Origin: Rathayibacter oskolensis
GTDB taxonomy: Bacteria; Actinomycetota; Actinomycetes; Actinomycetales; Microbacteriaceae
Assembly: GCF_900177245.1 (NCBI RefSeq)
Contig: NZ_FXBM01000001.1
Location: 372,001 to 436,000, forward strand
Length of the DNA stretch: 64,000 nucleotides
Direction of reading: 5' to 3'
The position numbers were made by a program, and so were the translations under genes. The number at the start of each line of letters is the position of its first letter. Position 1 is the first letter of the stretch. Of this stretch, positions 1,303 to 20,479 are shown piece after piece. The notes under the pieces were generated by a model, which made no database searches, had not been told where the DNA came from, and saw nothing but the letters and a program-made list of their open reading frames with translations.

Positions 1303-2508
1303 ATGACCGAGGCCCTGCAGCCGCCCGTCCAGAACGCCCTCTCTCTGACGCCGCCGGAGCCCGTCGCTGCCGTGCCGACCACGTCGGCGCCGTCGATCGC
1401 GCCGAAGGTGCCCGAGCAGGCGCTGCCCGGTCTCGAGGCCAAGGTCGACGGCTACCTGAACTCGCTGCTGCAGACGGAGGCGCGCAGCCCCGAGTTCGCG
1501 GCGAAGGCCAACGACATCCGCACGATGGGCGACGCCGACATCCGCTCGGCCGCCGACTCCTCGAACCGGCTGCTCAAGACGCCGGTGCGCGCGCTGCAGG
1601 AGGGCGGGCTCTCCGAGGGGTCGACCATCGGCAAGACCCTGCTCGAGCTGCGCCGCACGGTCGAGGATCTCGACCCCTCCGAGGACAACATCCAGAAGAA
1701 GATCCTCGGATTCATCCCCTTCGGCAACAAGATCACCGACTACTTCCGCCGCTACGAGAGCGCGCAGTCGCACCTCAACGCGATCATCCAGGCGCTCTAC
1801 GACGGGCAGGACGAGCTCCGCAAGGACAACGCCGCGCTCAACCTCGAGAAGCAGAACCTGTGGGACACGATGACGCGTCTCAACGAGTACATCTACGTCG
1901 CCGAGCGGCTCGACGTGAAGCTCTCGGCCAAGATCGCCGAGCTCGACGCGACCGATCCCGACCGCGCCCGGGCACTGCGCGAAGACGTCCTCTTCTATGC
2001 GCGACAGAAGCACCAGGACCTGCTGACCCAGCTGGCGGTCTCGATCCAGGGCTACCTCGCGATCGACGTCGTGATCAAGAACAACGTCGAGCTGATCAAG
2101 GGCGTCGACCGGGCGACGACGACCACCGTGTCGGCGCTGCGCACCGCCGTCATCGTCGCGCAGGCGCTGGCGAACCAGCGTCTCGTGCTCGACCAGATCA
2201 CCGCCCTCAATACGACCACGTCGAACATGATCGAGGCGACCTCGCGGATGCTCGCCGAGCAGTCCGCGAGCATCCAGTCCCAGGCGGCGTCGGCGACCGT
2301 CGGTCTGCCGCAGCTGCAGGCCGCGTTCGCCAACATCTACCAGACGATGGACTCGATCTCGGACTTCAAGATCAAGGCGCTCGACAGCATGGCCCAGACG
2401 GTCGGAGTGCTGCAGACCGAGACCGCGAAGGCCGGCGAGTACGTCGAGCGCGCCCGCCGCTCGACGACCGACATCGACGCGACCTCCTCGCTCGATCTCG
2501 GCCGCTAG
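1303..2508 (+). CDS. telA: TelA/KlaA-family toxic anion resistance protein
   Basis: 401 residues, the usual length of TelA (KlaA, YaaN) proteins, which are cytoplasmic, alpha-helical and linked to tellurite, nisin and envelope stress without a known biochemical activity. The long helical body includes GNKITDYFRRYESAQSHLNA (around 144-163) and LREDVLFYARQKHQDLLTQL (around 226-245), both typical of the family. The ATG at 1303 is preferred over an in-frame GTG at 1291 because GTGAGGAA supplies the ribosome-binding site. It is the first gene of an eight-gene operon; the next gene starts three bases after its stop. TerC, another tellurite-linked family, is at 48321-49349. Confidence 0.9.
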   Translation: MTEALQPPVQNALSLTPPEPVAAVPTTSAPSIAPKVPEQALPGLEAKVDGYLNSLLQTEARSPEFAAKANDIRTMGDADIRSAADSSNRLLKTPVRALQEGGLSEGSTIGKTLLELRRTVEDLDPSEDNIQKKILGFIPFGNKITDYFRRYESAQSHLNAIIQALYDGQDELRKDNAALNLEKQNLWDTMTRLNEYIYVAERLDVKLSAKIAELDATDPDRARALREDVLFYARQKHQDLLTQLAVSIQGYLAIDVVIKNNVELIKGVDRATTTTVSALRTAVIVAQALANQRLVLDQITALNTTTSNMIEATSRMLAEQSASIQSQAASATVGLPQLQAAFANIYQTMDSISDFKIKALDSMAQTVGVLQTETAKAGEYVERARRSTTDIDATSSLDLGR

Positions 2509-2511
2509 ACC

Positions 2512-3114
2512 ATGGGCTGGCTCTCCCGCCTGCTCGGTGGTGGCGACGCCGCACCGGAGGAGTCCGCCCCCGCCGCCCTGCCCCGCGTCCCCACCAGCGA
2601 CGACATCCTCGCGGCGCTCGACCGCGTCGCCGCGGAGACCGAGGGGCGGGTGCCGCCCCTCGTCTCGGCGCGCATCCGACGGGTCGACGAGACCGTGCGC
2701 GAGATGGTGCCGCGCCTGGACCGCCTCGGCGGAATGAGCCAGCAGGGCCACACGGTGGTCGCCACCGCGACGAGCTACCTGCCCGAGGCCGTGGAGGGGT
2801 ACCTCCGCCTCCCGCGCGACTTCGCCGACCGCCGCGCCGTCCACAAGGGGAAGACCTCGCTGATGATCCTCTGCGACCAGCTCGACCTCCTCGGGGCGAC
2901 GCTCGACCGCATCTCCGACGCCGTCTCGCGGCAGGACGCGTCCGCTCTCATCGCGCACGGGCAGTTCCTCGCCGAGAAGTTCACGGAGTCGTCCCTCTCG
3001 CCGAGCGCGCTCGACGGCCCGAGCGCGCCGGGTGCCGCCGGTGCTCCCGGCTCCCTCGGTACCCCCGGCTCCCTCGGTACCCCCGGCTCCCTCCAGCCCC
3101 CGAGCGCCTCGTGA
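2512..3114 (+). CDS. XpaC-like partner of TelA, repeat-bearing C-terminus
   Basis: 200 residues. Residues 25-165 form a charged helical domain containing YLPEAVEGYLRLP (about 87-99), which resembles the YLP..V..Y core of XpaC proteins that sit beside TelA in Firmicutes; the match is distant and the assignment is inferred. The last 35 residues are low complexity and carry the repeat PGSLGT, encoded by an 18-bp tandem DNA repeat at 3049-3094. The gene lies three bases after telA and its stop overlaps the GTG of the AAA+ gene by four bases, so it is probably translationally coupled to both. No signal peptide or membrane helix is seen. Confidence 0.75.
   Translation: MGWLSRLLGGGDAAPEESAPAALPRVPTSDDILAALDRVAAETEGRVPPLVSARIRRVDETVREMVPRLDRLGGMSQQGHTVVATATSYLPEAVEGYLRLPRDFADRRAVHKGKTSLMILCDQLDLLGATLDRISDAVSRQDASALIAHGQFLAEKFTESSLSPSALDGPSAPGAAGAPGSLGTPGSLGTPGSLQPPSAS
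3049..3094 (+). repeat. 18-bp tandem repeat inside the XpaC-like gene
   Basis: Two exact copies of an 18-base unit starting GGCTCCCTCGG (3049-3066, 3067-3084) and a partial third copy. The unit is a multiple of three and encodes repeating PGSLGT, so copy-number change would keep the frame. Confidence 0.85.
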
Positions 3115-4622
3115 CCGCGTTCGGCTCGGCGCTGGACGCGCTGGTGGTCACCGGATCCGCAGCCGGACTCGACGCGGCCGCCGTCCGCGAGGAGGGCGCC
3201 CGCCTCGGGGCCGCGGTCGCCGAGTCCATCACGGGCGCCGGCCCCGACTGGCTCGCGGCGACCGAGGCACCCGGTGGCCTCGAGGCCTTCTTCACCGCCG
3301 CCTCCCGGGGTCGCCGCTGGCGCGGTGCTCCGACCGACCTGCTCGCAGCGCTCGTCGCGGCGCGATCCGAGCACGCCGCCGCCTATGCGCGCGCGCTCAC
3401 CGAGGTCGTCTCGGCGGCGAGTGCGCTCGGCGAGCCGGGCATCGGAGGCATCGCCTCCGCCTCCGCGACCGCGGCGGCGCAGCTCGGCGCACTGCCGACG
3501 CAGGGGCCCCCGGCCGGAACCGTGCACCCGGGGCGGTCCGTGAATCCCGTGCACCCCGCGAGGTCGGCGCTCCCGACCGAGCTCCCCGCCGGGGTCCCCG
3601 GCGTCGACGAGATCCTCGCGCGCCTGCGCCGCACCGAGCACGACGGTCCGCAGGACGAGCCCGACCCCTCGACGGCCGCGGCGCCTCCGGCCGCACCCGC
3701 CGCCGAGGAGGAGCCGGAGCCGCTCCCGCCCCCCGAGAAGATCGAGGATCTGCTCGCCGAGCTCGACGCCCTCATCGGGCTCGACCGGGTGAAGAGCGAG
3801 ATCAAGCGCCAGACGCAGCTGCTCCGCATCGACACGCTGCGCCAGGCCGCCGGCCTCACCACACCGACCCTCACCCGGCACCTCGTCTTCACGGGCAACC
3901 CGGGCACGGGCAAGACCACCGTCGCCCGGCTCGTCTCGCGGATCTACCGCTCCCTCGGGATCCTCTCGAAGGGCGTGCTCGTCGAGGTCGACCGGTCGGA
4001 GCTGGTCGCCGGCTACCTCGGGCAGACCTCGATGAAGACGGCCGAGGTGATCGCGAGGGCCCGCGGCGGCGTGCTCTTCATCGACGAGGCCTACGCGCTC
4101 GCGCTCGACCAGTACGGCGCCGAGGCGGTCACCACGCTCGTCAAGGACATGGAGGACCACCGCGGCGACCTGGTCGTGATCGTCGCGGGCTACTCCGGGC
4201 CCATGCAGGGCTTCCTCGACACCAACCCCGGCCTCGCGAGCCGCTTCTCGACGACGATCGACTTCGCCGACTACACCGACGACGAGCTGTCCGCGATCTT
4301 CCGGCGCCTCGCCTCCTCGGCCGATTTCGAGCCGACGGAGGAGGCGCTCACCGCCTTCGCCGAGCTCGCCGCGGCCCAGGAGCGCACCGAGGCGTTCGGC
4401 AACGGCCGCTGGGTGCGCAACGTGCTCGACGCCTCCATCGCCAGGCACGCCTGGCGGCTGCGCGACACCGAGGAGCCGACGCTCGACGAGCTGCGGATCC
4501 TGGTGCCGGAGGACGTGGTGGAGGCGCTGCCCGCGGAGGACGACGCTGCCGCTGAGGACGCTGCACAGGACGAGCCTGCTGAGCACCGAGCCCCCGACGA
4601 CGCTCCGGAGGAGACCGCATGA
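3111..4622 (+). CDS. CbxX/CfqX-type AAA+ ATPase
   Basis: 503 residues from a GTG that overlaps the upstream stop (GTGA). Residues 1-205 are an alanine-rich helical extension ending in a Pro/Glu linker; residues 215-465 are a AAA+ module of the CbxX/CfqX (SpoVK-like) group. Visible motifs are Walker A GNPGTGKTT (about 261-269), Walker B GVLFIDEAYAL (about 320-330) and the arginine-finger region NPGLASRF (about 372-379). These ATPases remodel protein partners; the partner here is unknown but is likely a product of this operon. The C-terminus is acidic. The frame stays open far upstream on the same strand, but the overlap with the preceding gene fixes the start. Confidence 0.9.
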   Translation: MTAFGSALDALVVTGSAAGLDAAAVREEGARLGAAVAESITGAGPDWLAATEAPGGLEAFFTAASRGRRWRGAPTDLLAALVAARSEHAAAYARALTEVVSAASALGEPGIGGIASASATAAAQLGALPTQGPPAGTVHPGRSVNPVHPARSALPTELPAGVPGVDEILARLRRTEHDGPQDEPDPSTAAAPPAAPAAEEEPEPLPPPEKIEDLLAELDALIGLDRVKSEIKRQTQLLRIDTLRQAAGLTTPTLTRHLVFTGNPGTGKTTVARLVSRIYRSLGILSKGVLVEVDRSELVAGYLGQTSMKTAEVIARARGGVLFIDEAYALALDQYGAEAVTTLVKDMEDHRGDLVVIVAGYSGPMQGFLDTNPGLASRFSTTIDFADYTDDELSAIFRRLASSADFEPTEEALTAFAELAAAQERTEAFGNGRWVRNVLDASIARHAWRLRDTEEPTLDELRILVPEDVVEALPAEDDAAAEDAAQDEPAEHRAPDDAPEETA

Positions 4623-5944
4623 GCACCGCCCCCGCCTCGCCGCCCGCCGTGCGGACGCCGGAGGCGTCCCCGGTGCGGATCGCGAACCCGCCCGCGACCA
4701 AGCGGCCGACGCTGCTCGCGCGGGCGACCTCGACCACTCCGCGCACCCTCCGGCTCCTGCTCGTGCTCACTGTGATCGCGGCGGTGCTCTTCGGGGTCGC
4801 CGCGCAGCAGGCCGGCGCGCTGCAGTCGCGCGCCGCGGCCGAGGCCCGTGAGCAGTCGGCGCAGATCGTGGGCGTGCAGGAGGTGCGGAACCTCCTGGTC
4901 GACGCGAACGCGATCGCGGCGAACACGTTCCTCGTCGGCGGGCTCGAGCCGGCCGACCAGCGGGCGGAGTTCACCGGCAACGTCCAGGCCGCCGCGACGC
5001 AGCTCGCGACCCTCTCGGCCTCCGAGCCCCGCGACTCCGAGGCGCTCGCCGCCGTCGCCCGCGACCTCACCACCTACAGCGGCCTCATCGAGCAGGCCCG
5101 CGCGAACAACCGCCAGGGCTTCCCGGTCGGCTCGGCCTACCTCGACCAGGCGTCGGCGGTCCTGACCGCCGACGACGGGATCCTCGCCGACCTGAACGAG
5201 CTCGTCAGCACCGGTGCCGACCGCGTGGCGAGCGCCTACGACGCCGTGCGCTGGAGCGGCCTGCTGCTCATCGGCTCCCTCGCGATGCTGCTGCTCATGG
5301 TCGGCGCGCAGGTCTGGCTGGCCCGGCGCACCCACCGCTATCTCAACCGTCCGCTCGCGACCGCCACCGCGCTGCTGCTCGTGCTCGGCATCGGCGCCGC
5401 ACTGGCCTACGGTGCCGCCGCCTCGAACGCGGGCACCGTGCGCAGCGAGTCCTACCGGGCGACGCTCGCCGTCTCGCAGGCGCTCACCGAGGCGAGCGAG
5501 GCGAAGTCGCTCGAGAGCTTCACGCTGATCAAGCGCGGCTCGGGTGCGGCGCTCGAGGCGCAGTTCCAGGAGGCGGCGACCCAGGCGCGCGACCGGCTCG
5601 AGGACGCGACGGCCACCGGGATCCTCGACGGTGGCCTGGTGGACGACCTCGACGCGTGGCTCGACAGGCACACCGCGATCCGCGAGGCCGACGACGCAGG
5701 TCGCTGGGACGAGGCGGTCGGCCTCGCCGTCGACACGGGCCCCGACTCGGCGAACGCCGCCTTCACCACCTTCAGCGACGCCGCAGAGGCGGCCGTGACG
5801 ACCGACGCGAGCAGCACCGAGAACACCCTCGGGACCTGGGGGGCGATCTCGTCGATCGCCTCGTGGATCCTGCTGGCCGGCGGGCTGATCGGCGCCGCGC
5901 TGGCCTGGCGCGGGGTCTCGCAGCGACTCGAGGAGTACCGATGA
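4619..5944 (+). CDS. glnX: GlnX-like membrane sensor partner
   Basis: 441 residues, almost the length of mycobacterial GlnX (Rv0412c). Four hydrophobic helices are visible near 44-62, 215-237, 248-268 and 411-431, with two large predicted extracytoplasmic helical domains (65-210 and 270-405) rich in Ala/Glu. This matches the proposed role of GlnX: receiving the ligand state of the binding protein GlnH outside the membrane and passing it to PknG inside. The ATG overlaps the AAA+ stop by four bases and the stop overlaps glnH. No kinase or HAMP domain is present, so it must act through a partner. The assignment rests on topology, length and synteny with glnH and pknG. Confidence 0.82.
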   Translation: MSTAPASPPAVRTPEASPVRIANPPATKRPTLLARATSTTPRTLRLLLVLTVIAAVLFGVAAQQAGALQSRAAAEAREQSAQIVGVQEVRNLLVDANAIAANTFLVGGLEPADQRAEFTGNVQAAATQLATLSASEPRDSEALAAVARDLTTYSGLIEQARANNRQGFPVGSAYLDQASAVLTADDGILADLNELVSTGADRVASAYDAVRWSGLLLIGSLAMLLLMVGAQVWLARRTHRYLNRPLATATALLLVLGIGAALAYGAAASNAGTVRSESYRATLAVSQALTEASEAKSLESFTLIKRGSGAALEAQFQEAATQARDRLEDATATGILDGGLVDDLDAWLDRHTAIREADDAGRWDEAVGLAVDTGPDSANAAFTTFSDAAEAAVTTDASSTENTLGTWGAISSIASWILLAGGLIGAALAWRGVSQRLEEYR

Positions 5945-6939
5945 ACCGCCTGCGCCCTTCCCGTCCGCGCCCCTCCCGCCTGCGCACGGCCGCCCTCGTC
6001 CTCGTGACGGCCGCGGCGCTCGCGGTCTCGGGGTGCAGCACGGGGGCCGACGACCTCGGCACCGTGATCGGCGCCGCCACGCCCACCCCGACCGCCACGC
6101 CGGCGCCGACCGCGAGTGCAGGAGCACCGGCGACCGAGTGCTCGCCGTCGGCGGTCACCTCCTACGCGCCGACCGGAGTCACCGACAGCGCGAGGCTCAC
6201 CGCCATCCGCCAGGCGGGCACCCTGCGCGTCGGCGTCTCGGCCGACACCCTGCTGATGAGCGCGCGCAACCCGCTCACCGGGTCGATCGAGGGCTTCGAC
6301 ATCGACATCGCGCGCGAGATCGCCCGCGCGATCCTCGGCGACCCCGACGCGATCACCTTCGTGGTGATCACCTCCGCCCAGCGCCTCCCCGCCCTGACCG
6401 GAGGCGACGGCGCGCCGCAGGTCGACATGGTCGCGCGCACGCTCACCATGACCTGCGACCGCTGGGGCAGCATCGCCTTCTCGTCGGAGTACTACGGCGC
6501 AGGGCTCAAGGTCCTGGTGTCGGACAGCAGCGAGGCAGACAGCATCGCCGACCTGTCGGGCGAGACGGTCTGCGCGCCCCGCAGCACCACGACGCTCAGC
6601 AGGCTCGAGAACGACTACCCCGAGGTCGAGGCGGTCGCCGCGGACACCCACACCCAGTGCCTCGCGCTCTTCCAGGAGGGATCCGTCGACGCCATCGCGG
6701 GCGACGACACGATCCTCGCCGGCTTCGTCGCGCAGGACCCCTACGCGAAGGTCATCGGCGACGCGCTCAGCTCGGAGCCCTACGGACTCGGGATGCCCGC
6801 CGACGACCTGGACTACGTCCGCTTCGTGAACGCCGCGCTCGAGAGCATCCGCGCCGACGGTCGCTGGCAGAGCATCTACGACCGCTGGCTGGGCGAACTC
6901 GGGGCGGCCTCGCCGCCGGCGCCCGCCTACGGACGATGA
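5941..6939 (+). CDS. glnH: GlnH-like amino-acid-binding lipoprotein
   Basis: 332-residue family 3 solute-binding protein. A twin-charge N-terminus and hydrophobic stretch end in the lipobox LAVSGC with Cys32, so it is a membrane-anchored lipoprotein. A Thr/Pro/Ala-rich linker (about 45-65) precedes the binding fold (70-325), with GTLRVGVSADT near the first strand and EGFDIDIAREIARAI typical of glutamate or aspartate binders. No ABC permease or ATPase is nearby, which points to sensing rather than import; mycobacterial GlnH signals aspartate/glutamate to PknG. It is coupled by four-base overlaps to glnX and to the coiled-coil gene. Confidence 0.9.
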   Translation: MNRLRPSRPRPSRLRTAALVLVTAAALAVSGCSTGADDLGTVIGAATPTPTATPAPTASAGAPATECSPSAVTSYAPTGVTDSARLTAIRQAGTLRVGVSADTLLMSARNPLTGSIEGFDIDIAREIARAILGDPDAITFVVITSAQRLPALTGGDGAPQVDMVARTLTMTCDRWGSIAFSSEYYGAGLKVLVSDSSEADSIADLSGETVCAPRSTTTLSRLENDYPEVEAVAADTHTQCLALFQEGSVDAIAGDDTILAGFVAQDPYAKVIGDALSSEPYGLGMPADDLDYVRFVNAALESIRADGRWQSIYDRWLGELGAASPPAPAYGR

Positions 6940-8108
6940 GCGTCGCGGCGAACGGGACGGGACTCGCCGAGGGCAGCCCGGTCGCGCCGGGCCGCCTGGG
7001 CGAGGCGGCACCGCAGCGCGAGCTCTTCGAGTACCTCGCGGCACTCACCCGCTGGCTCGAGCGGACCACGCGCGAGCTGTCGCGGCTGGACGCCGCGGCC
7101 CTCGCCTCGCCTCAGGCCGACAGCTACACCTCCGACGTCGTGCTCGCCCAGTCGCTGCGCGAGTCGGTGACGCGACGCCTCGCCGAGCTCGAGCTGGTGT
7201 GGGACTCGGGCCGCGTCGACGTCGTCGCCCGCGAGCGGATGTCGCAGCTGATCTGGGGCCGCCTCGACTCCTCAGGGTCGGGCGCGAGCGCCGCGGTCTC
7301 GCTGGTGGAGGCGGTCAGGCTGTGCGACGCCGTCGTCGGGCAGCTGAAGTCGCGGCTCGAGCTCGACCCGAGCGGCACCGACGTGGCCGGCCGGATCGTC
7401 GGGGTGCGCGCCGAGATCGAGCGCTGCCGCGACCTCACCCGCGACAATCGCGGGACCGTCGACCAGGAGTCCGCGCAGCGGGTCGCCGTGCTGCGCTCCC
7501 GCCTCGACGCCCTGGCCGAGAAGGCGAGCAGGGGAGCGGACGTCTCCGGCCCGCTCGGCCAGCTCGAGAGCGACTCGGCCCGCCTCGAGCGCGACCTGAT
7601 CATCGCCGCCTCCGAGGGCCGTGGACTCGAGCGCGACCGCCGGCGCGCACGCGAGCTCGCGGAGGCGGCGGAGCGGAGGGAGGCGCCGCTGCGCGAGCTC
7701 GTGGCCCGCTGCCGCCGCGAGATCGCCGACCCGCCCCGGCTCGCGGTGCCCGACGTCTCGCGCCTCGGCGAGCCACCCTCGAACCGGGAGGCGCTCGACG
7801 CGCACCTCGCCCGCCTCACCGCCGTGGGCCGCGCCTTCGACGCCGTCGAGGCCGCCTACACGTCGCCGCTGCGCGAGCGCGCGGCGCTCGGCTTCCGACT
7901 CCGCGCTCTCCGCGAGCGGGCGGCCGCGAACGGCCGCGCCGCCTCCGCCGTCGGAGTGGCCGCCGAGGAGGAGGTCAGGGCCGCCCTCGACGCCGTGCCC
8001 TGCTCGGTGCCCCTCGCCCGACACCTCGTCGAGCAGTACGACGTCGTCACGCGCGACCTGCCGCGCGCAGCCCCCGCCAGCCCGCACCACCGGAAGGCCA
8101 CCCCATGA
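6936..8108 (+). CDS. Coiled-coil protein of the PknG operon, function unknown
   Basis: 390 residues, soluble, nearly all alpha-helical, with many Arg/Glu/Ala heptads (for example ERDRRRARELAEAAERREAP) and no recognised catalytic motif, signal peptide or membrane helix. It is inserted between glnH and pknG, positions that are adjacent in mycobacteria, and overlaps both neighbours by four bases (ATGA). A scaffold role linking the receptor pair to the kinase is a guess from position only. Confidence 0.75.
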   Translation: MSVAANGTGLAEGSPVAPGRLGEAAPQRELFEYLAALTRWLERTTRELSRLDAAALASPQADSYTSDVVLAQSLRESVTRRLAELELVWDSGRVDVVARERMSQLIWGRLDSSGSGASAAVSLVEAVRLCDAVVGQLKSRLELDPSGTDVAGRIVGVRAEIERCRDLTRDNRGTVDQESAQRVAVLRSRLDALAEKASRGADVSGPLGQLESDSARLERDLIIAASEGRGLERDRRRARELAEAAERREAPLRELVARCRREIADPPRLAVPDVSRLGEPPSNREALDAHLARLTAVGRAFDAVEAAYTSPLRERAALGFRLRALRERAAANGRAASAVGVAAEEEVRAALDAVPCSVPLARHLVEQYDVVTRDLPRAAPASPHHRKATP

Positions 8109-10480: not shown

Positions 10481-11532
10481 GCGGCGAGCTGTCCACGCCG
10501 TGCCCCGTCTGCGGCGAGCCGGTGACCGCCGGCGACGCCTTCTGCGAGGCGTGCGGGAGCACCCTGATCGTCCGGGCGGCCCAGGCGGCTCCCCCGACCG
10601 CCGAGCCCGCGCCGTGCGTGTACTGCGGCGGCACGGTGGCCGACGACGGCTACTGCGAGCAGTGCGGCCGGCCGGCGCCGACCGAGCGCGAGCACTGGGC
10701 GGAGGCGCCCCATCCTCTGGTCGGCGGCGTCTGCGACCGGGGGCTGCGCCACGCGGCGAACGAAGACGCGATGGCGCTCGGCGCCCGCGCGGACGGGGGC
10801 GGCGTGCTCCGCACCGCGCTGCTGGTCGTCTGCGACGGCGTCTCGTCGACCCCCGACTCCGACCGGGCCTCGCTGGCGGCCGCGCGTGCCGCGCTGAGCG
10901 CCCTGCAGGCCGAGGTCGGCGAGGAGGCTCGCGGGGCCGATCGGTGGGGCGCGCTCCTGCAGATGGCGGTCGCGCGCGCCTCCGGAGCGATCGACGCGGC
11001 CGTGCCCGAGAAGCGGGCGAACCCGCCCTCGTGCACCTTCACCGCCGCGATCCTCGACGGCGCGCTGCTGGTCACCGGCAACGTCGGCGACAGCCGCAGC
11101 TACTGGATCCCCGACGCGGGGCCGGCGCGGCAGCTGACGGTCGACGACTCCTGGGCCCAGGAGCAGATCGCCTCGGGGATGGGGCGGGCGGAGGCGGAGA
11201 CCGCTCCCGACGCGCACGCGATCACGAAGTGGCTCGGCGCCGACGCCCACGACGAGGAGCCGACCATCGCCTCCGTCGTGCTCGAGGAGCCGGGCTGGGT
11301 GCTCGCGTGCTCGGACGGACTGTGGAACTACGCCTCGTCGGCGGAGGACCTCGCGGGAGTGCTCCGGACCACGCTGGAGCGCGTCGGCAGCGACCCGGTC
11401 ACCGTCTCGGAGGCGCTCGTCGCCTGGGCGAACGAGCGCGGCGGCCACGACAACATCACAGCGGCACTGGCGCGCTTCGAGCCCGAGCCGGTGGAGAAGG
11501 CGGATCCGTCCACCAGCACCCCGCCGCACTAG
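10477..11532 (+). CDS. PP2C-family protein phosphatase with two zinc ribbons
   Basis: 351 residues from a GTG overlapping the pknG stop. Two N-terminal zinc ribbons have Cys at 9, 12, 23, 26 and 47, 50, 60, 63; the second (DDGYCEQCGRP) matches the tag of PknG. A PP2C domain follows (about 78-345) with the metal-binding motifs RHAANEDA, VCDGVSS, GNVGDSRSY, SDGLWNY and GGHDNIT, so the Asp residues for two-metal catalysis are present. It probably removes phosphates placed by PknG or the kinase at 19475-20479. It is the last gene of the operon; the next gene has its own promoter. Confidence 0.93.
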   Translation: MSGELSTPCPVCGEPVTAGDAFCEACGSTLIVRAAQAAPPTAEPAPCVYCGGTVADDGYCEQCGRPAPTEREHWAEAPHPLVGGVCDRGLRHAANEDAMALGARADGGGVLRTALLVVCDGVSSTPDSDRASLAAARAALSALQAEVGEEARGADRWGALLQMAVARASGAIDAAVPEKRANPPSCTFTAAILDGALLVTGNVGDSRSYWIPDAGPARQLTVDDSWAQEQIASGMGRAEAETAPDAHAITKWLGADAHDEEPTIASVVLEEPGWVLACSDGLWNYASSAEDLAGVLRTTLERVGSDPVTVSEALVAWANERGGHDNITAALARFEPEPVEKADPSTSTPPH

Positions 11533-11566
11533 ACGAATCCACCCACCCCGCGGCGCCCCCTCCGCC

Positions 11567-11572
11567 TACAGT
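11567..11572 (+). promoter_or_regulatory. -10 hexamer of the semialdehyde dehydrogenase gene
   Basis: TACAGT, seven bases before the ATG at 11580; a leaderless start that separates this gene from the signalling operon. Confidence 0.5.
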
Positions 11573-11579
11573 CGACCCC

Positions 11580-13097: not shown

Positions 13098-13366
13098 GCC
13101 TCTCTCCTCGCTGCGCTCGTCGATCGGCCGCGGTCGGCTCGGCGAGGTGGGTGCGTTCCGCGGAGCGTCCTGCCTCCGCGCACGGCGAATCGCTGGACGC
13201 GATTCGGCGGTTGCGCTCGGCCGTGGTGGTCGGCCTCTCTCCTCGCTGCGCTCGTCGATCGGCCGCGGTCGGCTCGGCGAGGTGGGTGCGTTCCGCGGAG
13301 CGTCCTGCGGTCGCGCACGTCGATCCGGTGGAACGCGGATCGCCGGTTGCGCTTGGCCTGAGGGGA
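13097..13366. repeat. 135-bp tandem duplication in intergenic DNA
   Basis: Unit one spans 13097-13231 and unit two 13232-13366. The first 77 bases are identical (13097-13173 and 13232-13308); the remaining 58 are diverged but keep GCGCAC and CGGTTGCGCT. The first copy begins at the last base of the mmsA stop codon. No credible gene is present; reading frames across it are low-complexity Arg/Ala/Pro. Confidence 0.9.
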
Positions 13367-13469
13367 CCCTCGCGTCCCGCCTGCTTGCTGGTAGAGCAGC
13401 CCGGAGGGGCGGATCGAGACCCACGTGACCCGGGCGGTGGATTCCCGGGCATACCGGGACAGCCGTCGC
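13367..13469. repeat. Candidate dispersed intergenic repeat of Microbacteriaceae type
   Basis: On the minus strand this holds GGTCTCGATCCGCCC followed by GGGCTGCTCTACCAGCAAGC, close to a palindromic sequence that I recall as scattered between genes in this family. A CCCGGG...CCCGGG pair near 13427-13447 may act as a terminator between the convergent mmsA and pucR genes. Nothing else is visible in the 372-base gap. Family membership is from memory and was not searched. Confidence 0.45.
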
Positions 13470-14972
13470 TCAGACGAACCGCAGCGCCGTCCACAGCTCG
13501 GCGCGGGCGCCGAAGTCGTCGAGGTCGATGCCCAGCGCGCGCTCGACGGCGGTGATGCGGTTGCGGAGGGTGTGTCGGTGCACACCGAGCTCGCGAGCGG
13601 TGGGATCCCACGCGCCGTTGCGGCGGAGCCAGACGCGCGCGGTCTCGAGCAGCACGGCACCGTCCGGGGTGAGCAGCGGCTCGAGCATCCTCCGGGCGAG
13701 CGGCTCGGCTCCGGAGGCGGTGAGCAGGCCCAGCATCCCCCGCTCGGCGACCTCCTCGAAGCGCAGCAGCGGATGATCGACGCCGGCGCGCTCGGCGGCG
13801 CGGGTCGCCTCCTGCAGCCCTCGGCCGAGCTCGGCCCACCCGATCGGCGCGGAGGCGCCCGCGGTGAGTCCGTGCCGGCCGAGCACCCCCGCGATCGGCT
13901 CCAGGTCGTCGGCTCCGGTGATCACGACGAGGGCGGAGTCGCGCTCGGCGAAGAAGAGCCGCGCGCCGTTCTCCTCCGCGAAGACCTCGAGCTCGTCGAG
14001 CAGCGATTCGCCGTGGACGGGCTCGCTCAGCACGCTCACCCGCACGGGCTCGGCCGGCAGGGTGCCCCAGAGCTGCTGGGCCGTGCGCGATGCGACGTCG
14101 AAGGCGCCCGCGGCGAGCAGCTCGAGCAGCCCCGACCGCAGCTGGCGCCGGGAGGTGTCGAGCGCCCGCCGCTGCTCGAGGGCGATGCTCGCCAGGCCGA
14201 TGACGCTCGCGACGAGGTCGTTGCCCGCCGGGTCGAGCGGAGTCCCGGTGCCGACGGCGAGCACGCCGCGCAGGTGATCGCGCTGCCCCAGCGTCTGCAG
14301 GGTCACGCCGCCGCCGTCGTCGAGTCTGAGCCCCGCGCGGCTGCCGCGGGAGAGCGCGTGCCGCACCGCGGCGGTGACCGACGCCTCCGCCGCCTCCGGA
14401 ACGTCGAGCCGCGTCTGCAGGTGCACGCGCTGCCCGACGGCGTCGTAGAGCGCGACCCAGCAGTCGAGCTGATGCTCGAGCTCCGAGAGGATCGCCGCGA
14501 GCCCGTCGGGCCGCAGTGCCGCGCGCGCGACGCGGCGCTGCGCCTCCAGCGACCACTCGAGCCGTTCGCGCTGCTCGCGCGAGATCACGTCGGCGACGAA
14601 GCGGATGATCCCCATGAACGGCGTGCGCTCGGCGACCTCGAGCAGTGGCAGGCCCTGCCGCTCGCAGGCGGCGATCAGCCGAGGGGGCACCTCGTCGTGC
14701 ACGATGTCGGTCGCGAAGCCGAGCGCCCGGATCCCGCGACCGCGCAGGCGCGCGACGTAGCCCTCCGAGAACTCGGCCGAGTCGGCGCCCGTGAAGTGCA
14801 CGCCGTCGGTGAGCAGAAGCTGGCCCGATTCGAGCCACGGAGTCGGATCGACGAGGTCGGACGAGTGCGCCCACACGAGCGGGGCGTCCAGCGCCGCCTC
14901 GTCGTGCACCCCGGCGAGGATCCGCAGCCGGAACGCCGGCTCGGCGAGCAGATCGCGGACGGTCGCGGGCAT
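13470..14972 (-). CDS. PucR-family transcriptional regulator
   Basis: 500 residues. The N-terminal PucR domain (about 5-125) opens with TVRDLLAEPAFRLRILAG; a GGDEF-like/CdaR middle region follows; and the C-terminal PucR-type helix-turn-helix (about 445-498) contains WDPTARELGVHRHTLRNRI. Such proteins sense small nitrogen compounds and usually activate neighbouring catabolic genes. It is divergent from the aminotransferase gene (97-base shared promoter region) and convergent with mmsA, so it probably controls both. A TACGAT hexamer at 15003-15008 (minus strand) is a candidate -10, giving a short leader. Confidence 0.92.
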   Translation of the reverse strand: MPATVRDLLAEPAFRLRILAGVHDEAALDAPLVWAHSSDLVDPTPWLESGQLLLTDGVHFTGADSAEFSEGYVARLRGRGIRALGFATDIVHDEVPPRLIAACERQGLPLLEVAERTPFMGIIRFVADVISREQRERLEWSLEAQRRVARAALRPDGLAAILSELEHQLDCWVALYDAVGQRVHLQTRLDVPEAAEASVTAAVRHALSRGSRAGLRLDDGGGVTLQTLGQRDHLRGVLAVGTGTPLDPAGNDLVASVIGLASIALEQRRALDTSRRQLRSGLLELLAAGAFDVASRTAQQLWGTLPAEPVRVSVLSEPVHGESLLDELEVFAEENGARLFFAERDSALVVITGADDLEPIAGVLGRHGLTAGASAPIGWAELGRGLQEATRAAERAGVDHPLLRFEEVAERGMLGLLTASGAEPLARRMLEPLLTPDGAVLLETARVWLRRNGAWDPTARELGVHRHTLRNRITAVERALGIDLDDFGARAELWTALRFV

Positions 14973-15057
14973 GAGCGGCTCCCCGGGTTCGACGGTGTGT
15001 CCATCGTAGGCGCGGAGGTTCGACGGATCCGGCAGTCACCTCCGGAGCCGGACGCGG

Positions 15058-15063
15058 CACGAT
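15058..15063 (+). promoter_or_regulatory. Candidate -10 hexamer of the aminotransferase gene
   Basis: CACGAT, six bases before the ATG at 15070, in the shared region with the divergent PucR gene. Confidence 0.4.
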
Positions 15064-15069
15064 GGAGTC

Positions 15070-16431
15070 ATGACGCTCTCGACGACCCCGCACGACGTCC
15101 ACGACGGCACCGGCCGCGAAGAAGGCACGACCCGCGACAACGCCTCCGTCGCCGCCGCCGACCGCTCGCGCGTCTTCCACTCCTGGTCGGCGCAGGGCGC
15201 GCTGAACCCGCTGCCGATCGCGGGAGGCCTCGGCTCGGAGGTCTGGGACGTCGACGGCACCCGCTACCTCGACTTCTCGAGCCAGCTGGTCAACGTCAAC
15301 ATCGGGTACCAGCACCCGAAGGTCGTCGCGGCGATCCAGGAGCAGGCGGCGATCCTCACCACGGTCGGTCCGGCCGCCGCGAACGAGACCCGCGCCGAAG
15401 CGGCGCGCCTCATCACCGAGCGCGCTCCCGAGGGCTTCGAGAAGGTCTTCTTCACCAACGGGGGCGCCGACGCCAACGAGAACGCGATCCGCATGGCGCG
15501 CCTGTACACCGGCCGCGACAAGGTCGTGTCGTTCTACCGCTCGTACCACGGCAACACCGGCGCCGCGATCGTCTCGACCGGCGACTGGCGCCGCATCCCG
15601 AACGAGTACGCGCGCGGCCACGTGCACGCCTTCGGCCCCTACCTCTACCGCACCGAGTTCTGGGCCGAGACGCCCGAGCAGGAGTGCGAGCGCGCGCTGC
15701 ACCACCTCGAGCGCGTCGTGCAGGCCGAGGGTCCGGAGTCGATCGCCGCGTTCCTGATCGAGACGATCCCCGGCACCGCCGGGATCCTGACTCCGCCGCC
15801 CGGCTTCCTGCCCGGCGTCCGCGCGATCGCCGACCGCTACGGGATCCAGCTCATCCTCGACGAGGTGATGGCCGGCTTCGGCCGCACGGGCCAGTGGTTC
15901 GCCTTCGACGCGTTCGACGTCCGCCCCGATCTGATCACCTTCGCCAAGGGCGTCAACTCGGGCTACGTGCCGATCGGAGGCGTCATCATCTCGGACCCGA
16001 TCGCGCACCACTTCGACGACCGCGTGTTCCCCGGCGGCCTCACCTACTCCGGGCACCCGCTCGCTGCGGCGAGCGTCATCGCGACCCTCGAGGCGATGGA
16101 GGAGGAGGGGATCGTCGACAACGCGAAGACCATCGGCTCCGAGCACCTCGCTCCCGGTCTCGCCGCCCTCGAGGCGAAGCACGACGTGATCGGCGAGGTG
16201 CGCGGCTCCGGTGTCTTCTGGGCGCTCGAGCTCGTGTCGGACCGCGAGGCGCGGACCCCGCTGCCCGTCGCGTCGGTCGGCCGGTTGAAGGCCGACCTGC
16301 TCTCCCGCGGCCTGCTGCCGTTCACCGCCGACAACCGGATCCACGTCGTCCCGCCCGCGGTCGTCACCCCCGCCGAGGTCGCCCGCGGCCTCGGGATCCT
16401 CGACGACGCGCTGACGGCCTTCAGCGGCTGA
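15070..16431 (+). CDS. Class III (omega) aminotransferase, PLP-dependent
   Basis: 453 residues with the fold-type I omega-aminotransferase pattern: SEVWDVDGTRYLDFSSQLVN near 55-75, FFTNGGADANENAIRMAR around 127-144, YRSYHGNTGA, the Asp-bearing ILDEVMAGFGRTG, and the PLP Schiff-base Lys293 in FAKGVNSGYVPIGG. It would move an amino group from a terminal amine such as beta-alanine, GABA or putrescine to pyruvate or 2-oxoglutarate. Placement beside mmsA and PucR favours beta-alanine to malonate semialdehyde, which MmsA would convert to acetyl-CoA; substrate choice is inferred. Confidence 0.9.
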   Translation: MTLSTTPHDVHDGTGREEGTTRDNASVAAADRSRVFHSWSAQGALNPLPIAGGLGSEVWDVDGTRYLDFSSQLVNVNIGYQHPKVVAAIQEQAAILTTVGPAAANETRAEAARLITERAPEGFEKVFFTNGGADANENAIRMARLYTGRDKVVSFYRSYHGNTGAAIVSTGDWRRIPNEYARGHVHAFGPYLYRTEFWAETPEQECERALHHLERVVQAEGPESIAAFLIETIPGTAGILTPPPGFLPGVRAIADRYGIQLILDEVMAGFGRTGQWFAFDAFDVRPDLITFAKGVNSGYVPIGGVIISDPIAHHFDDRVFPGGLTYSGHPLAAASVIATLEAMEEEGIVDNAKTIGSEHLAPGLAALEAKHDVIGEVRGSGVFWALELVSDREARTPLPVASVGRLKADLLSRGLLPFTADNRIHVVPPAVVTPAEVARGLGILDDALTAFSG

Positions 16432-16456
16432 CGAGAAGACGTCGACGCCCGGACTC

Positions 16457-17245
16457 TCAGCACTGCCGGGAGACGAAGCCGTCGTCCCCCGGCACGAGCA
16501 GGTCGCGGTCGCGCAGCACCACCCCGATGCGGTCGCCGCGGAGGGAGCACGCGCGGTCGAAGACGGCCTCCGACCCGTCGGTGTACTCGACCTCGTAGAC
16601 CCGCGCGCCGTACACGTCGGTGTAGGCGTCGCACTCGCGGAACGCCTCGCACTCCTCGGTGATCGCGAAGTCGAAGCCGAGCGCCCGCATCTCGCCGGCG
16701 CGCTCGGCCGCGTTCTTCTGGCCGATCGCGAGACCGGAGGCGTGCGCCGACTCGACCAGCGCCTCGGCGAACGCTCCCGTGTCCTCGTCGCTCAAGAGGC
16801 CCTCGGAGCGGGTGGCGGAGTCGAGGTTGTCGGTCTCGATCGCGTCGAAGCCGGTGTCGGCGCAGCCCGCGATCCACTCCGAGACGACGTCCAGCAGGGC
16901 GTCCCGCTTCTGCGGTGTCGAGACGTCGAGGAGGATCTCGTCGGGCCAGTCGGGATCGGTCACCGCGACGCCGTCGTCGTCGCGCAGCAGCAGCTCCGCC
17001 CGCGCGCCCGTCCACTCCGCCTCCTCGCCCGGCTGGGTCTGGAACGCGTTGACGTAGCAGACCGAGTACAGGCCCGGCTCCGGCCGGTCGGTGCGGTCGC
17101 GCACCACGAGGCCGACGCCGTCGGCCGGCGGGTAGCCGCCGCCGAGCTGGTAGTCGAAGCGGACGCCCTCGGGAGGCGGGGCGACGCCGGTCGCCGGGCT
17201 TCCTGCGCATCCGGCGAGGAGGGCCACCGACGAGAGCACGGCCAA
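16457..17245 (-). CDS. GH114/TM1410-type glycosidase-like lipoprotein
   Basis: About 262 residues if the TTG at 17245 is used. A hydrophobic stretch ends in the lipobox LLAGC, so export as a lipoprotein is likely. The body contains GVRFDYQLGGGYPP, YSVCYVNAFQTQP, DVVSEWIAGCADTGFDAIET and GLAIGQKNA, which match the TIM-barrel GH114 (alpha-1,4-polygalactosaminidase) family. The start is unsure: TTG at 17245 gives a signal peptide without positive charge, while a GTG at 17323 gives a charged N-terminus but overlaps the divergent VWA gene by 66 bases. A role in degrading galactosamine-containing polymers follows only from the family. Confidence 0.75.
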   Translation of the reverse strand: MAVLSSVALLAGCAGSPATGVAPPPEGVRFDYQLGGGYPPADGVGLVVRDRTDRPEPGLYSVCYVNAFQTQPGEEAEWTGARAELLLRDDDGVAVTDPDWPDEILLDVSTPQKRDALLDVVSEWIAGCADTGFDAIETDNLDSATRSEGLLSDEDTGAFAEALVESAHASGLAIGQKNAAERAGEMRALGFDFAITEECEAFRECDAYTDVYGARVYEVEYTDGSEAVFDRACSLRGDRIGVVLRDRDLLVPGDDGFVSRQC

Positions 17246-17251
17246 TAAGCT
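17246..17251 (+). promoter_or_regulatory. -10 hexamer of the VWA gene
   Basis: TAAGCT, six bases before the ATG at 17258: a leaderless start opening the second half of the signalling island. Confidence 0.5.
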
Positions 17252-17257
17252 GACGGA

Positions 17258-18532
17258 ATGGCGGAGTTCAGCGCGAGTGTCTTTCAGAACGAGTTCCTCT
17301 CGGACGGCGCCACCGACGTGCACGCGATCGTGACGGTGACCGCCTCGGGCACCGGTGCGGCCGGCAGCGACGGTGCGGCCGCCGAGATCATCATCGTCGA
17401 CTGCTCCGGCTCGATGACCGGCGAGAACATGGTCGCCGCCAAGCGCGCCGCCGCGGTCGCCGTCGACCAGATCCTCGACGGCACCTTCTTCGCCGTCGTC
17501 GCGGGCTCCGAGCGCGCCGACCGCGCCTTCCCCTACCCCAACGCCTCCGTGCCGATGGTGCGCATGGAGCCGGGGGCGCGCGCCGCCGCCAAGGAGGCGA
17601 TCGGCTACCTCCAGGCCGATGGTGGCACCGCGATGGGCACGTGGCTCACGCTCGCCCGCCAGCTCTTCGCGAGCGTCCCCGAGGCCACGCAGCGGCACGC
17701 GATCCTGCTGACCGACGGCAAGAACGAGCACGAGTCGCGGATGCAGCTCGACGCGGCGATCCGTGCCGCCGGCGGCGTCTTCCAGTGCGATGTCCGCGGC
17801 GTCGGCTCCCGCTGGGTCGTCGAGGAGGCCCGCACGATCGCGAGCGCGCTGCTCGGCACGGTCGGACTGATCGCGAACCCCGCCGACATGGCGGCCGACT
17901 TCGAGCAGCTGATCCAGGCGTCGATGGGCCGCGGAGTCGCCAGCGGCGAGCTGCGCGTCTGGACCCCGCAGGGCGCACAGCTGCTCTTCGTGCGGCAGGT
18001 CGCGCCGAACCTCGAGGACCTCAGCTCCCGCCGCACCTCGGTGAACCCCCTCACCGGCTCCTATCCGACCGGCGCCTGGGGCGACGAGTCACGGGAGTAC
18101 CACGTGGCCGTGCGGGTCGCCTCCAAGCCCGTCGGGGCCGAGCAGCTGGCCGCCCGGGTGCAGCTGAGCGTGCGCGACGAGGTGGTCGCCTCCGCCCTCG
18201 TCAAGGCGCGCTGGACCGACGACTCCGCCCTCACCGCCCGCATCGACCCGGCCGTGGCGCACTACACCGGTCAGACCGAGCTGGCCTCGGCGATCCAGGA
18301 CGGGCTCGCGGCGAAGGCCGCGGGCGACGAGGCCACGGCGACCGTGAAGCTCGGCCGCGCGGTGCAGCTGGCCGCCGTCACGGGCAACGACGAGGCGACC
18401 GCGAAGCTGCGCAAGGTCGTCGAGATCGACAACCCGAACGAGGGCACCGTGCGGCTGAAGCGCGGAGTCGCCAAGCTCGACGAGATGGCGCTGGACACCG
18501 CGTCGACCAAGACCACGCGGGTGCGCAAGTGA
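17258..18532 (+). CDS. von Willebrand factor A domain protein
   Basis: 424 residues, cytoplasmic. The VWA domain (about 40-215) has the metal-ion adhesion site DCSGS (D48, S50, S52), a Thr in ADGGTAMGTW near 118-127 and LLTDGKNEHES further on. The C-terminal half has beta-rich and helical segments ending in a basic tail (TTRVRK). VWA proteins of this kind hold protein complexes together; in Ter-type stress systems a VWA protein works with a kinase and a PP2C phosphatase. The stop overlaps the FHA gene start (GTGA), so the two are translated together. Confidence 0.92.
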   Translation: MAEFSASVFQNEFLSDGATDVHAIVTVTASGTGAAGSDGAAAEIIIVDCSGSMTGENMVAAKRAAAVAVDQILDGTFFAVVAGSERADRAFPYPNASVPMVRMEPGARAAAKEAIGYLQADGGTAMGTWLTLARQLFASVPEATQRHAILLTDGKNEHESRMQLDAAIRAAGGVFQCDVRGVGSRWVVEEARTIASALLGTVGLIANPADMAADFEQLIQASMGRGVASGELRVWTPQGAQLLFVRQVAPNLEDLSSRRTSVNPLTGSYPTGAWGDESREYHVAVRVASKPVGAEQLAARVQLSVRDEVVASALVKARWTDDSALTARIDPAVAHYTGQTELASAIQDGLAAKAAGDEATATVKLGRAVQLAAVTGNDEATAKLRKVVEIDNPNEGTVRLKRGVAKLDEMALDTASTKTTRVRK

Positions 18533-19437
18533 GCTTCCGCTGCCCCGAGGGGCACACGTCGACCTCCGGCGACTACTGCGACGTCTGCGGCGCCCCGATC
18601 GGTGCCGCTCAGACTCCGGCGCCCGTCGCATCGAGTCCCGCCGCCCCGACGACGGCCATCCCGACGGGCCCGGCCGTCTGCCCGAACTGCTCGTACCCGA
18701 ACGAGGCGGGCGCGCTGTTCTGCGAGAACTGCGGCTACGACTTCACGACGGGCTCGCTGCCCGAGGCCGATCCGTTCACGGCGTCCGGCGCGGTCCGCGC
18801 CCCGGCCGAGGTCGGCGGGTCGGCGTCCGCCGCCGGCGACCCCTCCGCCCATCCGGGCGAGGTGCACGCCGCCGAGGCGCCGGGGGAGCAGTCACTGCCC
18901 CCGACGGCGCTCGTTCCGGAGTCGGAGGCCGGCTTCGACGTGCCCGTCGCCACCGCGCCGCCCGCCCCCTCCGCGCCGAGCGCTCCGACCGAGGTGACCC
19001 CCGAGGCGACGCCGGCCGCCGAGGCGTCCTCGCCCGACCCGTGGGTCGCCGAGCTCTGGATCGACCCCGACTGGTACGCGGAGCAGCGCGCGGAGGATCC
19101 GATGCCCTCTCCCGGCCCGCCGTCGACCGTCGTGCTGCGCGAGCGCTCCCTGCTCGTGGGGCGGCCCTCCGTCTCCCGCGGCATCTCGCCGCAGATCGAC
19201 TGCGGCACCGACTCCGGTGTGTCGCGGAGGCAGTGCCAGCTCTCGACCGACGGCGTGCGCTGGTGGGTCGAGGATCTGCAGTCGGCGAACGGCACCTACC
19301 TCGCCGCCGCCGGAGCGGGGCTGCCGCAGACGCCCCTCCCCGCCGGCCAGCGCCGCGAGGTCGGCGAGGGCGACCGGATCTACGTCGGCGCGTGGACGCG
19401 CCTGGTGCTCAGGAAGGCGCTGCCGGGCGAGGTCTGA
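18529..19437 (+). CDS. FHA-domain protein with two zinc ribbons
   Basis: 302 residues from a GTG overlapping the VWA stop. Two N-terminal zinc ribbons (C5/H9/C17/C20 and C51/C54/C65/C68) are followed by a Pro/Ala/Glu-rich linker (about 75-175) and a C-terminal FHA domain (about 200-300) with LLVGRPS, GVSRRQCQL, where Gln replaces the usual His of SRRH, and LQSANGTYL. FHA domains bind phosphothreonine, so this is the probable reader of PknG or of the adjacent kinase, similar in role to GarA though the N-terminus is different. It ends convergently with the kinase gene. Confidence 0.93.
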   Translation: MSFRCPEGHTSTSGDYCDVCGAPIGAAQTPAPVASSPAAPTTAIPTGPAVCPNCSYPNEAGALFCENCGYDFTTGSLPEADPFTASGAVRAPAEVGGSASAAGDPSAHPGEVHAAEAPGEQSLPPTALVPESEAGFDVPVATAPPAPSAPSAPTEVTPEATPAAEASSPDPWVAELWIDPDWYAEQRAEDPMPSPGPPSTVVLRERSLLVGRPSVSRGISPQIDCGTDSGVSRRQCQLSTDGVRWWVEDLQSANGTYLAAAGAGLPQTPLPAGQRREVGEGDRIYVGAWTRLVLRKALPGEV

Positions 19438-19449
19438 GCGGGCGTCGAT

Positions 19450-19471
19450 CCGCGGCCCGCAGAGGCCGCGG
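19450..19471. terminator. Bidirectional hairpin between FHA and kinase genes
   Basis: Perfect 8-bp stem CCGCGGCC (19450-19457) and GGCCGCGG (19464-19471) with a six-base loop, in the 37-base gap between convergent stops. Confidence 0.6.
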
Positions 19472-19474
19472 GGC

Positions 19475-20479
19475 TCAGCGGCCGGCGAGCACTCCGAGCA
19501 TCCACGACAGCGCGGAGACGGCGCCGACGCCCACGACGCTCGACGCGATGATGATGCTGCGGCGCACGCGCGCCGAGCGGGTGTCGGAGGCGGCGACCGG
19601 CTCCGGGACCTGCACGGCCATCGGCGCGGTCGTGCCCGCCGCGAGCCCGCTCCGCAGTCGCTGGGCGACCTGCTCGGCGGTCGGACGCCGGGCGGGGTCG
19701 CGCTGCGTCATGGCGACCAGGAGGCCGCGCCAGGCCTCGGGCAGCGACTCCGGAACGGCCGGGCTGCGGTGCAGGCGAGCGATCGCCGCCTCCAGCACGG
19801 TGCCGGCGTACTCGCGGTGCCCGGTGAGCGCCTCCAGCAGCACCAGCCCGAGCGAGAACACATCGCTGGCTCCACTGATCGGCTCGCCGGCGACCTGCTC
19901 GGGGCTGACGAAGCTGGCCGTGCCGATGACGATGCCGTCGCTGGTGAGGCGCGAGCCGTCCATGAAGTGCGCGACGCCGAAGTCGGTGAGCTTGGCGGTG
20001 TGGTCGTAGCCGCTCGAGCCGACGTCGCTGACGAGGATGTTCGCCGGCTTCACGTCGCGGTGCACGACTCCGCGCTCGTGCAGGTAGGCGAGGGCCTCGG
20101 CGAGCTGGGCGCCGATCGCGGCCACCTCTCCGGCGGCCATCCGGCCCGAGTCGAGCCGCTTCTCCATCGTCGGGTCGGCCACGAGCTCCATGACGACGTA
20201 GCGGCGCACTTCGCCGCCGAAGTTGTGCAGTCCCGCGTCGAAGAGGTTGACGATGCCCGGGTGCGCGAACGAGCTGAGCATCCGCACCTCGCGCTCCTGA
20301 CGGGCGACGTCGTCGGGGCTCGAGGCCTCGGCGCGGAACACCTTCACGGCGACGTCGCGCTGCACGGTCTCGTCCCGCGCTCGGTAGACCGAGCCCATGC
20401 CTCCCGAGCCGATGCGCTCGATGAGGTAGTAGCGGCCGGCCACCTTCTGCTGCGCAGCGCCGGCGGCGATGACACTCAC
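19475..20479 (-). CDS. Membrane-anchored serine/threonine protein kinase
   Basis: 334 residues from a GTG. The kinase domain fills residues 15-275: GSGGMGSVY loop (24-32), ATP-binding Lys46 in VAVKVF, HRDVKPAN (H140, catalytic D142), DFG (166-168) and the GTASFVSPEQ activation segment, all typical of PknB-like Hanks kinases. A linker and one hydrophobic helix (about 302-328) close the protein with only a few residues outside, so no extracellular sensor such as PASTA repeats is present. It faces the FHA gene convergently, which makes that protein a natural substrate. It is the second kinase of the island. Confidence 0.93.
   Translation of the reverse strand: MSVIAAGAAQQKVAGRYYLIERIGSGGMGSVYRARDETVQRDVAVKVFRAEASSPDDVARQEREVRMLSSFAHPGIVNLFDAGLHNFGGEVRRYVVMELVADPTMEKRLDSGRMAAGEVAAIGAQLAEALAYLHERGVVHRDVKPANILVSDVGSSGYDHTAKLTDFGVAHFMDGSRLTSDGIVIGTASFVSPEQVAGEPISGASDVFSLGLVLLEALTGHREYAGTVLEAAIARLHRSPAVPESLPEAWRGLLVAMTQRDPARRPTAEQVAQRLRSGLAAGTTAPMAVQVPEPVAASDTRSARVRRSIIIASSVVGVGAVSALSWMLGVLAGR

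Follow-up and report, generated by a model that had tools for sequence, protein, structure and literature searches.

Introduction

In Corynebacterium and Mycobacterium, the kinase PknG is controlled by GlnH and GlnX and phosphorylates OdhI/GarA (PMC9769921; PMC8546545; PMC6069109). PMC6069109 describes the glnX-glnH-pknG triad as conserved in Actinobacteria, and PMC9769921 calls the action of GlnX on PknG still elusive. A further system of interest is TerY-P, which according to PMC11090510 consists of a VWA protein, a PP2C phosphatase and a kinase with a zinc ribbon; passages of PMC7159879 likewise place a zinc-ribbon kinase, a PP2C and a stand-alone vWA next to conflict systems. Here, we describe a ten-gene cassette that encodes homologues of GlnX, GlnH and PknG in a stretch of 64,000 nucleotides of Rathayibacter oskolensis (assembly GCF_900177245.1, contig NZ_FXBM01000001.1, positions 372,001 to 436,000), hereafter called the window, whose own coordinates are used throughout. 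The remaining genes of the cassette encode TelA, AAA+, PP2C, VWA and FHA proteins and two helical proteins that we call SmB and CC. Genome comparisons indicate that the ten genes are conserved together and in order across many actinobacterial genera, and it seems reasonably probable that they work as a single unit, an enlarged version of the GlnX-GlnH-PknG pathway in which a phospho-switch would be coupled to TelA-SmB-AAA+.

Like the described operon, the cassette has all three homologues together, with an OdhI-like protein encoded elsewhere in the two genomes checked. It differs by seven more genes, CC lying between GlnH and PknG, and from the mycobacterial and corynebacterial operon also by an extra N-terminal zinc ribbon on PknG and by a residue other than Trp at GlnH position 232. 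The larger gene set was not found described in full-text literature searches or in the passages of PMC1262709 and PMC7159879 examined, a result whose scope excludes subscription journals, supplements and figures. PknG has been studied mostly within the three-gene set, and the conserved ten-gene set points to a larger machine around it.

Results

A search with PknG returned 262 encoding stretches, the best 80 loci of which were examined together with flanks of at most 10 kb; loci and genomes are given below by our own L and G numbers where they need to be told apart. All ten genes were present in 62 of the 80. Among the 18 incomplete loci, 14 reach a contig end (including L074, which is also from Rathayibacter), and the other four are Rathayibacter loci (L001, L003, L004, and L028) in which the examined flank or, in L003, the contig ends before VWA-FHA is reached. 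Gene order was colinear in 79 of 80 loci at first count, the exception (L050) being an artefact of one hidden Markov model (HMM) domain line picked in a long open frame; comparison with L043 suggests the same artefact behind an odd gene position in L195. Outside Rathayibacter, VWA directly follows PP2C, the sole spacer among the best 80 loci being approximately 0.9 kb in L005. The window therefore holds the ten-gene cassette, contiguous elsewhere, in split form. In Rathayibacter genomes, VWA-FHA is found farther downstream, after the same set of catabolic genes, as seen in L002, in L074, and, for the genomes that contain L001 and L028, in L205 and L206. As judged from these comparisons of loci, TelA and FHA mark the boundaries of the cassette, and the Rathayibacter unit was split after PP2C.

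Flanking genes did not share this conservation. In a control of 15 loci (13 named genera, Kineosporia twice, plus one further record; BLASTP at E<=1e-15 and >80 bits), the ten genes were complete in 14, and eight were found in the Rathayibacter locus L028, where VWA-FHA lies past the flank. No family wholly outside the cassette recurred in more than three of the 15 loci. Families with members both inside and outside the cassette contributed three outside frames beyond FHA, namely the second kinase in L005, a frame grouping with PknG in L080, and an antisense frame in L058. The preliminary description of this DNA, made from its letters alone, had linked TelA, AAA+, PP2C, VWA, and FHA to glnX-glnH-pknG, and this linkage withstood the neighbourhood check in both the best 80 loci (62) and the control (14 of 15).

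A second sample comprised 99 genomes of the order chosen irrespective of PknG, some of which overlap with the genomes of the best 80 loci. Full-length GlnX occurred in 12 of them, eight over the family cut-off and four below it (212-247 bits). Any GlnX match at all was seen in 24 genomes; the 12 weak ones (E of 1.5e-7 or worse) were set aside, and none of the ten families was present in the eight weak loci that were fetched. All ten genes stand together in ten of the 12 GlnX genomes, one is cut at a contig end (G482, whose PknG, PP2C, VWA, and first part of FHA are on a separate contig, L273), and one is the Rathayibacter split. PknG exceeded its cut-off in 13 of the 99 genomes, which are the same 12 and the fragmentary G434, a match below cut-off in G433 being set aside. 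The signalling genes are close to all-or-none in this sample, in which TelA was found in 35 genomes. A second GlnX-like gene is present in three genomes (G457, G443, and G482; loci L202, L203, and L204), with no other cassette gene in the fetched stretch. One ten-gene locus among those examined, L072, is titled Streptomyces sp. SID13031, a name that may be wrong, as its similarity values are Kribbella-like.

Three main forms of PknG locus, with three, seven, and ten genes, were found across the phylum. At least 42 of the 396 genomes had a PknG rubredoxin domain above the cut-off, a lower bound because at most 14 candidates were scored per genome. Of the 46 loci obtained, 21 have the three-gene GlnX-GlnH-PknG arrangement, which is already published; this class takes in L147, L148, and L156, which end at or soon after PknG and are classed by the missing CC alone. 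Seventeen have GlnX-GlnH-CC-PknG-PP2C-VWA-FHA, one (L138) has the ten-gene form, and one (L127) is a seven-gene locus truncated by a contig end. In L137 the order is rearranged to CC-PknG-PP2C-VWA-FHA with GlnH and GlnX on the opposite strand. The rest consist of a PknG-like/VWA pair (3/46) or of PknG alone (2/46). In a PknG tree of 43 rows, from which five rows without the G-loop pattern were left out, the three-, seven-, and ten-gene forms each fell into one clade (support 85/92, 99/97, and 100/100, respectively). The three-gene clade includes two PknG-only copies, and PknG of L137, on a long branch, is placed next to the ten-gene clade. The root branch of this tree is very long, so the three-gene form may have lost genes or may have started out without them.

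Some genomes of the phylum sample carry further PknG relatives. Three large genomes with a seven-gene locus also have a PknG-like kinase adjoining VWA (L140, L141, and L142), the VWA bearing a C-terminal zinc ribbon in the two inspected, L140 and L142. In L133 and L136, PknG stands alone, neither GlnX nor GlnH being present in the fetched stretch; both are additional copies, their genomes also having a three-gene locus.

In the window, eight genes on the plus strand (1303-11532) encode, in order, TelA, SmB, AAA+, GlnX, GlnH, CC, PknG, and PP2C, with a 3-base gap between TelA and SmB followed by six 4-base overlaps. VWA (17258-18532) and FHA (18529-19437), also on the plus strand, overlap by 4 bases. 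Promoter and terminator scans gave no signal above shuffled sequence. The preliminary description had given these same joints and a convergent kinase in the 17258-20479 region, which is found at 19475-20479 on the minus strand. Its picture of an island was right as to the genes and their joints, but it passed over four unrelated genes (11580-17245) that separate PP2C from VWA and that family scans assign to an aldehyde dehydrogenase, a PucR regulator (minus strand), a class-III aminotransferase, and a GH114 protein (minus strand). PknG of the window is 91-92% identical to that of Rathayibacter sp. Leaf185 and VKM Ac-2754 (L001 and L028).

The sensory and kinase genes of the cassette are recognizable by family models. 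GlnX (4619-5944), a predicted membrane protein with four hydrophobic segments by hydropathy, passes the family model NF058618 (266.7 bits, cut-off 250) and falls short of the PknG-activating equivalog NF041460 (82.1 bits, cut-off 780). GlnH (5941-6939) is a GlnH-type solute-binding protein with a lipobox-like Cys (SBP_bac_3, 1.1e-20) that matches the Mycobacterium tuberculosis GlnH structure 6h2t at 7.1e-60. PknG (8105-10480) has the extra N-terminal zinc ribbon together with all three expected domains, the rubredoxin (PF16919, 1.2e-26), the Hanks kinase (PF00069, 1.5e-27), and the TPR (PF16918, 4.6e-48), and it matches the M. tuberculosis structure 2pzi at 1.7e-138. PP2C (10477-11532) is a PP2C_2 phosphatase (PF13672, 2.1e-12) with an N-terminal double zinc ribbon (PF12773, 2.7e-06), VWA carries a metal-site motif and VWA_3_C (PF18571 and PF13768), and FHA is a zinc-ribbon protein of 302 residues (PF00498, 1.6e-08; PF13240, 2.5e-07).

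The catalytic motif of PknG is kept in all 91 ten-gene homologues, and a pattern for its extra N-terminal ribbon fits 72 of the 91; a variant ribbon was seen in the two seven-gene proteins inspected. The GG.DN motif of PP2C is present in 89/90 ten-gene and 17/17 seven-gene homologues, and the pattern of its zinc ribbon fits in 75 of 90 ten-gene loci. For the VWA metal motif D.SGSM the counts are 84/85 and 17/17, and for the first FHA ribbon, CP.GH.S....[WY]C..CG, 79/80 and 17/17. Several PknG, PP2C, and FHA patterns scored 0/17 in seven-gene loci and were taken as too narrow, given variant residues in the inspected proteins, as was one pattern for the second FHA ribbon that scored 0/80 in ten-gene loci.

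The genes at the head of the cassette, and CC, are of less familiar kinds. TelA (1303-2508), the first gene, belongs to a family that heads related loci too (PF05816, 1e-91; 307.9 bits against a cut-off of 30). The AAA+ ATPase (3111-4622) is of the SpoVK/CbbX/EccA kind, with AAA and AAA_lid_6 domains and a structural match to CbbX (3syk, 2.4e-55); against models of that kind every score, TIGR02881 (2.7e-76) included, is under the equivalog cut-off. It thus shares an AAA+ plus lid domain with CbbX, SpoVK, and EccA, but family scans indicate that the nine other genes are not of Rubisco, sporulation, or type VII secretion. SmB (2512-3114) is a helical protein of approximately 200 residues, and CC (6936-8108) a soluble helical or coiled-coil protein of approximately 390 residues. 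No Pfam match at E<=0.001 was obtained in 45 SmB family members (best listed 0.0013) or in 46 CC family members (best listed 0.0067), and fold searches of both against the PDB likewise returned no match at E<=0.001. Their AlphaFold models are helical, with predicted local distance difference test (pLDDT) scores of 81.8 for SmB and 89.3 for CC, whose model has helices of 59 and 48 residues. The idea of SmB as a recognizable Pfam family was dropped, SmB and two SmB-like genes having no match over any cut-off. A resemblance of SmB to XpaC is a tentative lead.

The Asp-binding residues of GlnH are listed for the mycobacterial protein in PMC6069109, and their numbering was transferred by motif. The amino and carboxyl groups of the ligand are bound by Ser164, Arg169, and Asp250, to which Thr, Arg, and Asp correspond in the window; position 164 is Thr in 83 and Ser in six of 89 ten-gene proteins, and Arg147, Arg169, and Asp250 do not vary among the GlnH proteins of any form (21 three-gene, 18 seven-gene with L127, and 89 ten-gene). 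At the side-chain contacts Arg147, Thr162, and Trp232, GlnH of the window has Arg, Thr, and His. Position 232 follows the form of the locus, being Trp in 21/21 three-gene, Gln in 18/18 seven-gene (again with L127), and His, Asp, or Val in 67, 19, and three of the 89 ten-gene proteins; at position 162 the latter have Thr (27), Ala (34), or Asn (28). An amino acid probably remains the ligand. Because mycobacterial GlnH contacts the side chain of its ligand with a Trp that is replaced by His in the window, aspartate or glutamate is not assured as the ligand outside the three-gene form. As regards the earlier proposal of aspartate/glutamate as the external signal, the core amino-acid-binding residues of GlnH are kept and one side-chain contact differs, and GlnH specificity appears not to be simply transferable from mycobacteria.

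Discussion

The gene set and its conservation were demonstrated by comparative genomics, from which we infer the following mechanism. GlnH would bind an amino acid outside the membrane and act on GlnX, which would control PknG, probably via the soluble helical CC. PP2C would undo the phosphorylations made by PknG, and FHA, by reading phospho-threonines, could form a phospho-dependent scaffold with VWA, itself a putative metal-dependent scaffold. The zinc ribbons on PknG, PP2C, and FHA are candidate docking modules, and the whole switch may work like TerY-P. Its output would be an OdhI/GarA-like protein encoded elsewhere, as in the known species, and in the ten-gene form the switch would also act on a TelA-SmB-AAA+ assembly as a further output. 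The preliminary description proposed that a phospho-relay of this set may lead to an envelope or chemical-stress response. More tentatively, PknG of many actinobacteria might be the kinase of a ten-part, nutrient-gated and ribbon-docked phospho-switch (with PP2C, VWA, FHA, and the adaptor CC) that drives TelA-SmB-AAA+, the three-gene form of mycobacteria and corynebacteria being a stripped-down derivative and the sensor ligand having changed between forms. For the link between GlnX and PknG, and for PknG targets beyond OdhI/GarA, the cassette supplies candidates in CC, PP2C, VWA, FHA, TelA, SmB, and AAA+, of which CC and SmB matched no known family, and these make both questions testable.

The FHA protein of the cassette does not fit OdhI/GarA itself, scoring 18.2 bits against NF041660 (cut-off 200) and lacking an ETT-type phospho-acceptor, with no ETT or DTT in its 302 residues. 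An OdhI-like FHA protein with a TDTT motif is encoded elsewhere in Rathayibacter G001 and Agreia G003 (L219 and L220). Because the best NCBIfam match of these proteins is OdhI NF041660, over nearly the whole model and at 165 and 163 bits (below the same cut-off), the OdhI-type output is probably retained. Some OdhI/GarA-like FHA proteins (L208, L214, L225, and L231) bear an N-terminal zinc ribbon, a feature common to cassette proteins.

Several observations weigh against a single unit. TelA-SmB-AAA is not adjacent to any of the 17 seven-gene loci, so the switch does not need it. Conversely, G139 and G470 keep TelA-AAA without PknG or GlnX, and the assembly of G410, where TelA-SmB-AAA stands at a contig end, yielded neither PknG nor GlnX; the module may therefore be separate. 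CC in seven-gene loci is recognized weakly (27-35 bits in 14 of 17), the GlnH lipobox pattern fits 72/89 ten-gene but 0/17 seven-gene proteins, and the separation of VWA-FHA in Rathayibacter means that their co-translation with the rest is not essential. In one seven-gene locus, L126, the CC position is occupied by a gene for 434 residues.

These findings lend themselves to a reading as two independent modules on one transcript, with a seven-gene switch directed at metabolism through an OdhI/GarA-like protein and TelA-SmB-AAA+ as a co-expressed stress module. Besides the seven-gene loci and the three genomes just named, it can draw on the SmB-like genes, weak C-terminal relatives of SmB beside other TelA genes, which adjoin TelA in 11 of the 17 PknG-free TelA loci of the order sample (21-62 bits, several weak). 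TelA-family loci thus often include such a gene, but TelA of the cassette differs from theirs by its AAA+ neighbour and by forming one clade of its own, inside which the two TelA-AAA-only genomes nest, a position that fits a remnant. Three of the nine seven-gene genomes searched for TelA have one elsewhere, outside this clade. All 11 loci fetched around full-length GlnX in the order sample, as well as G001, hold TelA, SmB, and AAA alongside, and on balance we regard two independent modules as rather doubtful and one functional unit as the better account. The notion of an ordinary glnX-glnH-pknG operon with passenger genes agrees with the stated conservation of the triad (PMC6069109) but is contradicted by that of all ten genes: 14 of the 15 control loci were complete, and their flanks did not recur. 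We hold this notion to be highly improbable.

The parallel with TerY-P was also drawn in the preliminary description, and the set of kinase, PP2C, and VWA, encoded together though split in the window and accompanied by zinc ribbons, does resemble it. The kinase here is PknG, however, with an N-terminal ribbon and rubredoxin and a C-terminal TPR, and FHA, CC, and an amino-acid sensor are added. Because the ribbon of the kinase is N-terminal, the set is not a TerY-P member. A metal-stress or phage-defence switch of TerY-P type that borrowed PknG as its kinase would account for the joint presence of VWA, PP2C, kinase, zinc ribbons, and TelA (compare PMC11090510 and, for neighbours of conflict systems, PMC7159879). 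Against it stand the N-terminal rather than C-terminal ribbons and a gene order that is constant in many genera while the flanks change. No PADLOC model matched VWA, in a library that may hold no TerY model, and PP2C matched a single one at E=0.001. Such a switch therefore strikes us as improbable, and a larger GlnX-GlnH-PknG pathway as the preferable reading. PADLOC matches of PknG (PD-T4-6 and others) were rejected as signs of defence, as they cover the kinase domain and were taken as generic kinase matches.

Neighbouring genes

The second kinase (19475-20479, minus strand), convergent to FHA, is PknB-like with one C-terminal hydrophobic segment (PF00069, 1e-48). It had been counted as part of the system, which was not borne out: BLAST matches above 200 bits lie beside the cassette in two of the 80 loci (L005 and L006), and a relative with 89% identity does so in Rathayibacter L205. 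These statements rest on BLAST, as the HMM K2 was built mostly from PknG matches. The second kinase is a local neighbour and not a conserved member. Beyond it, genes at 20646-23763 on the minus strand resemble, to judge from their translations alone, a binding-protein-dependent transport operon.

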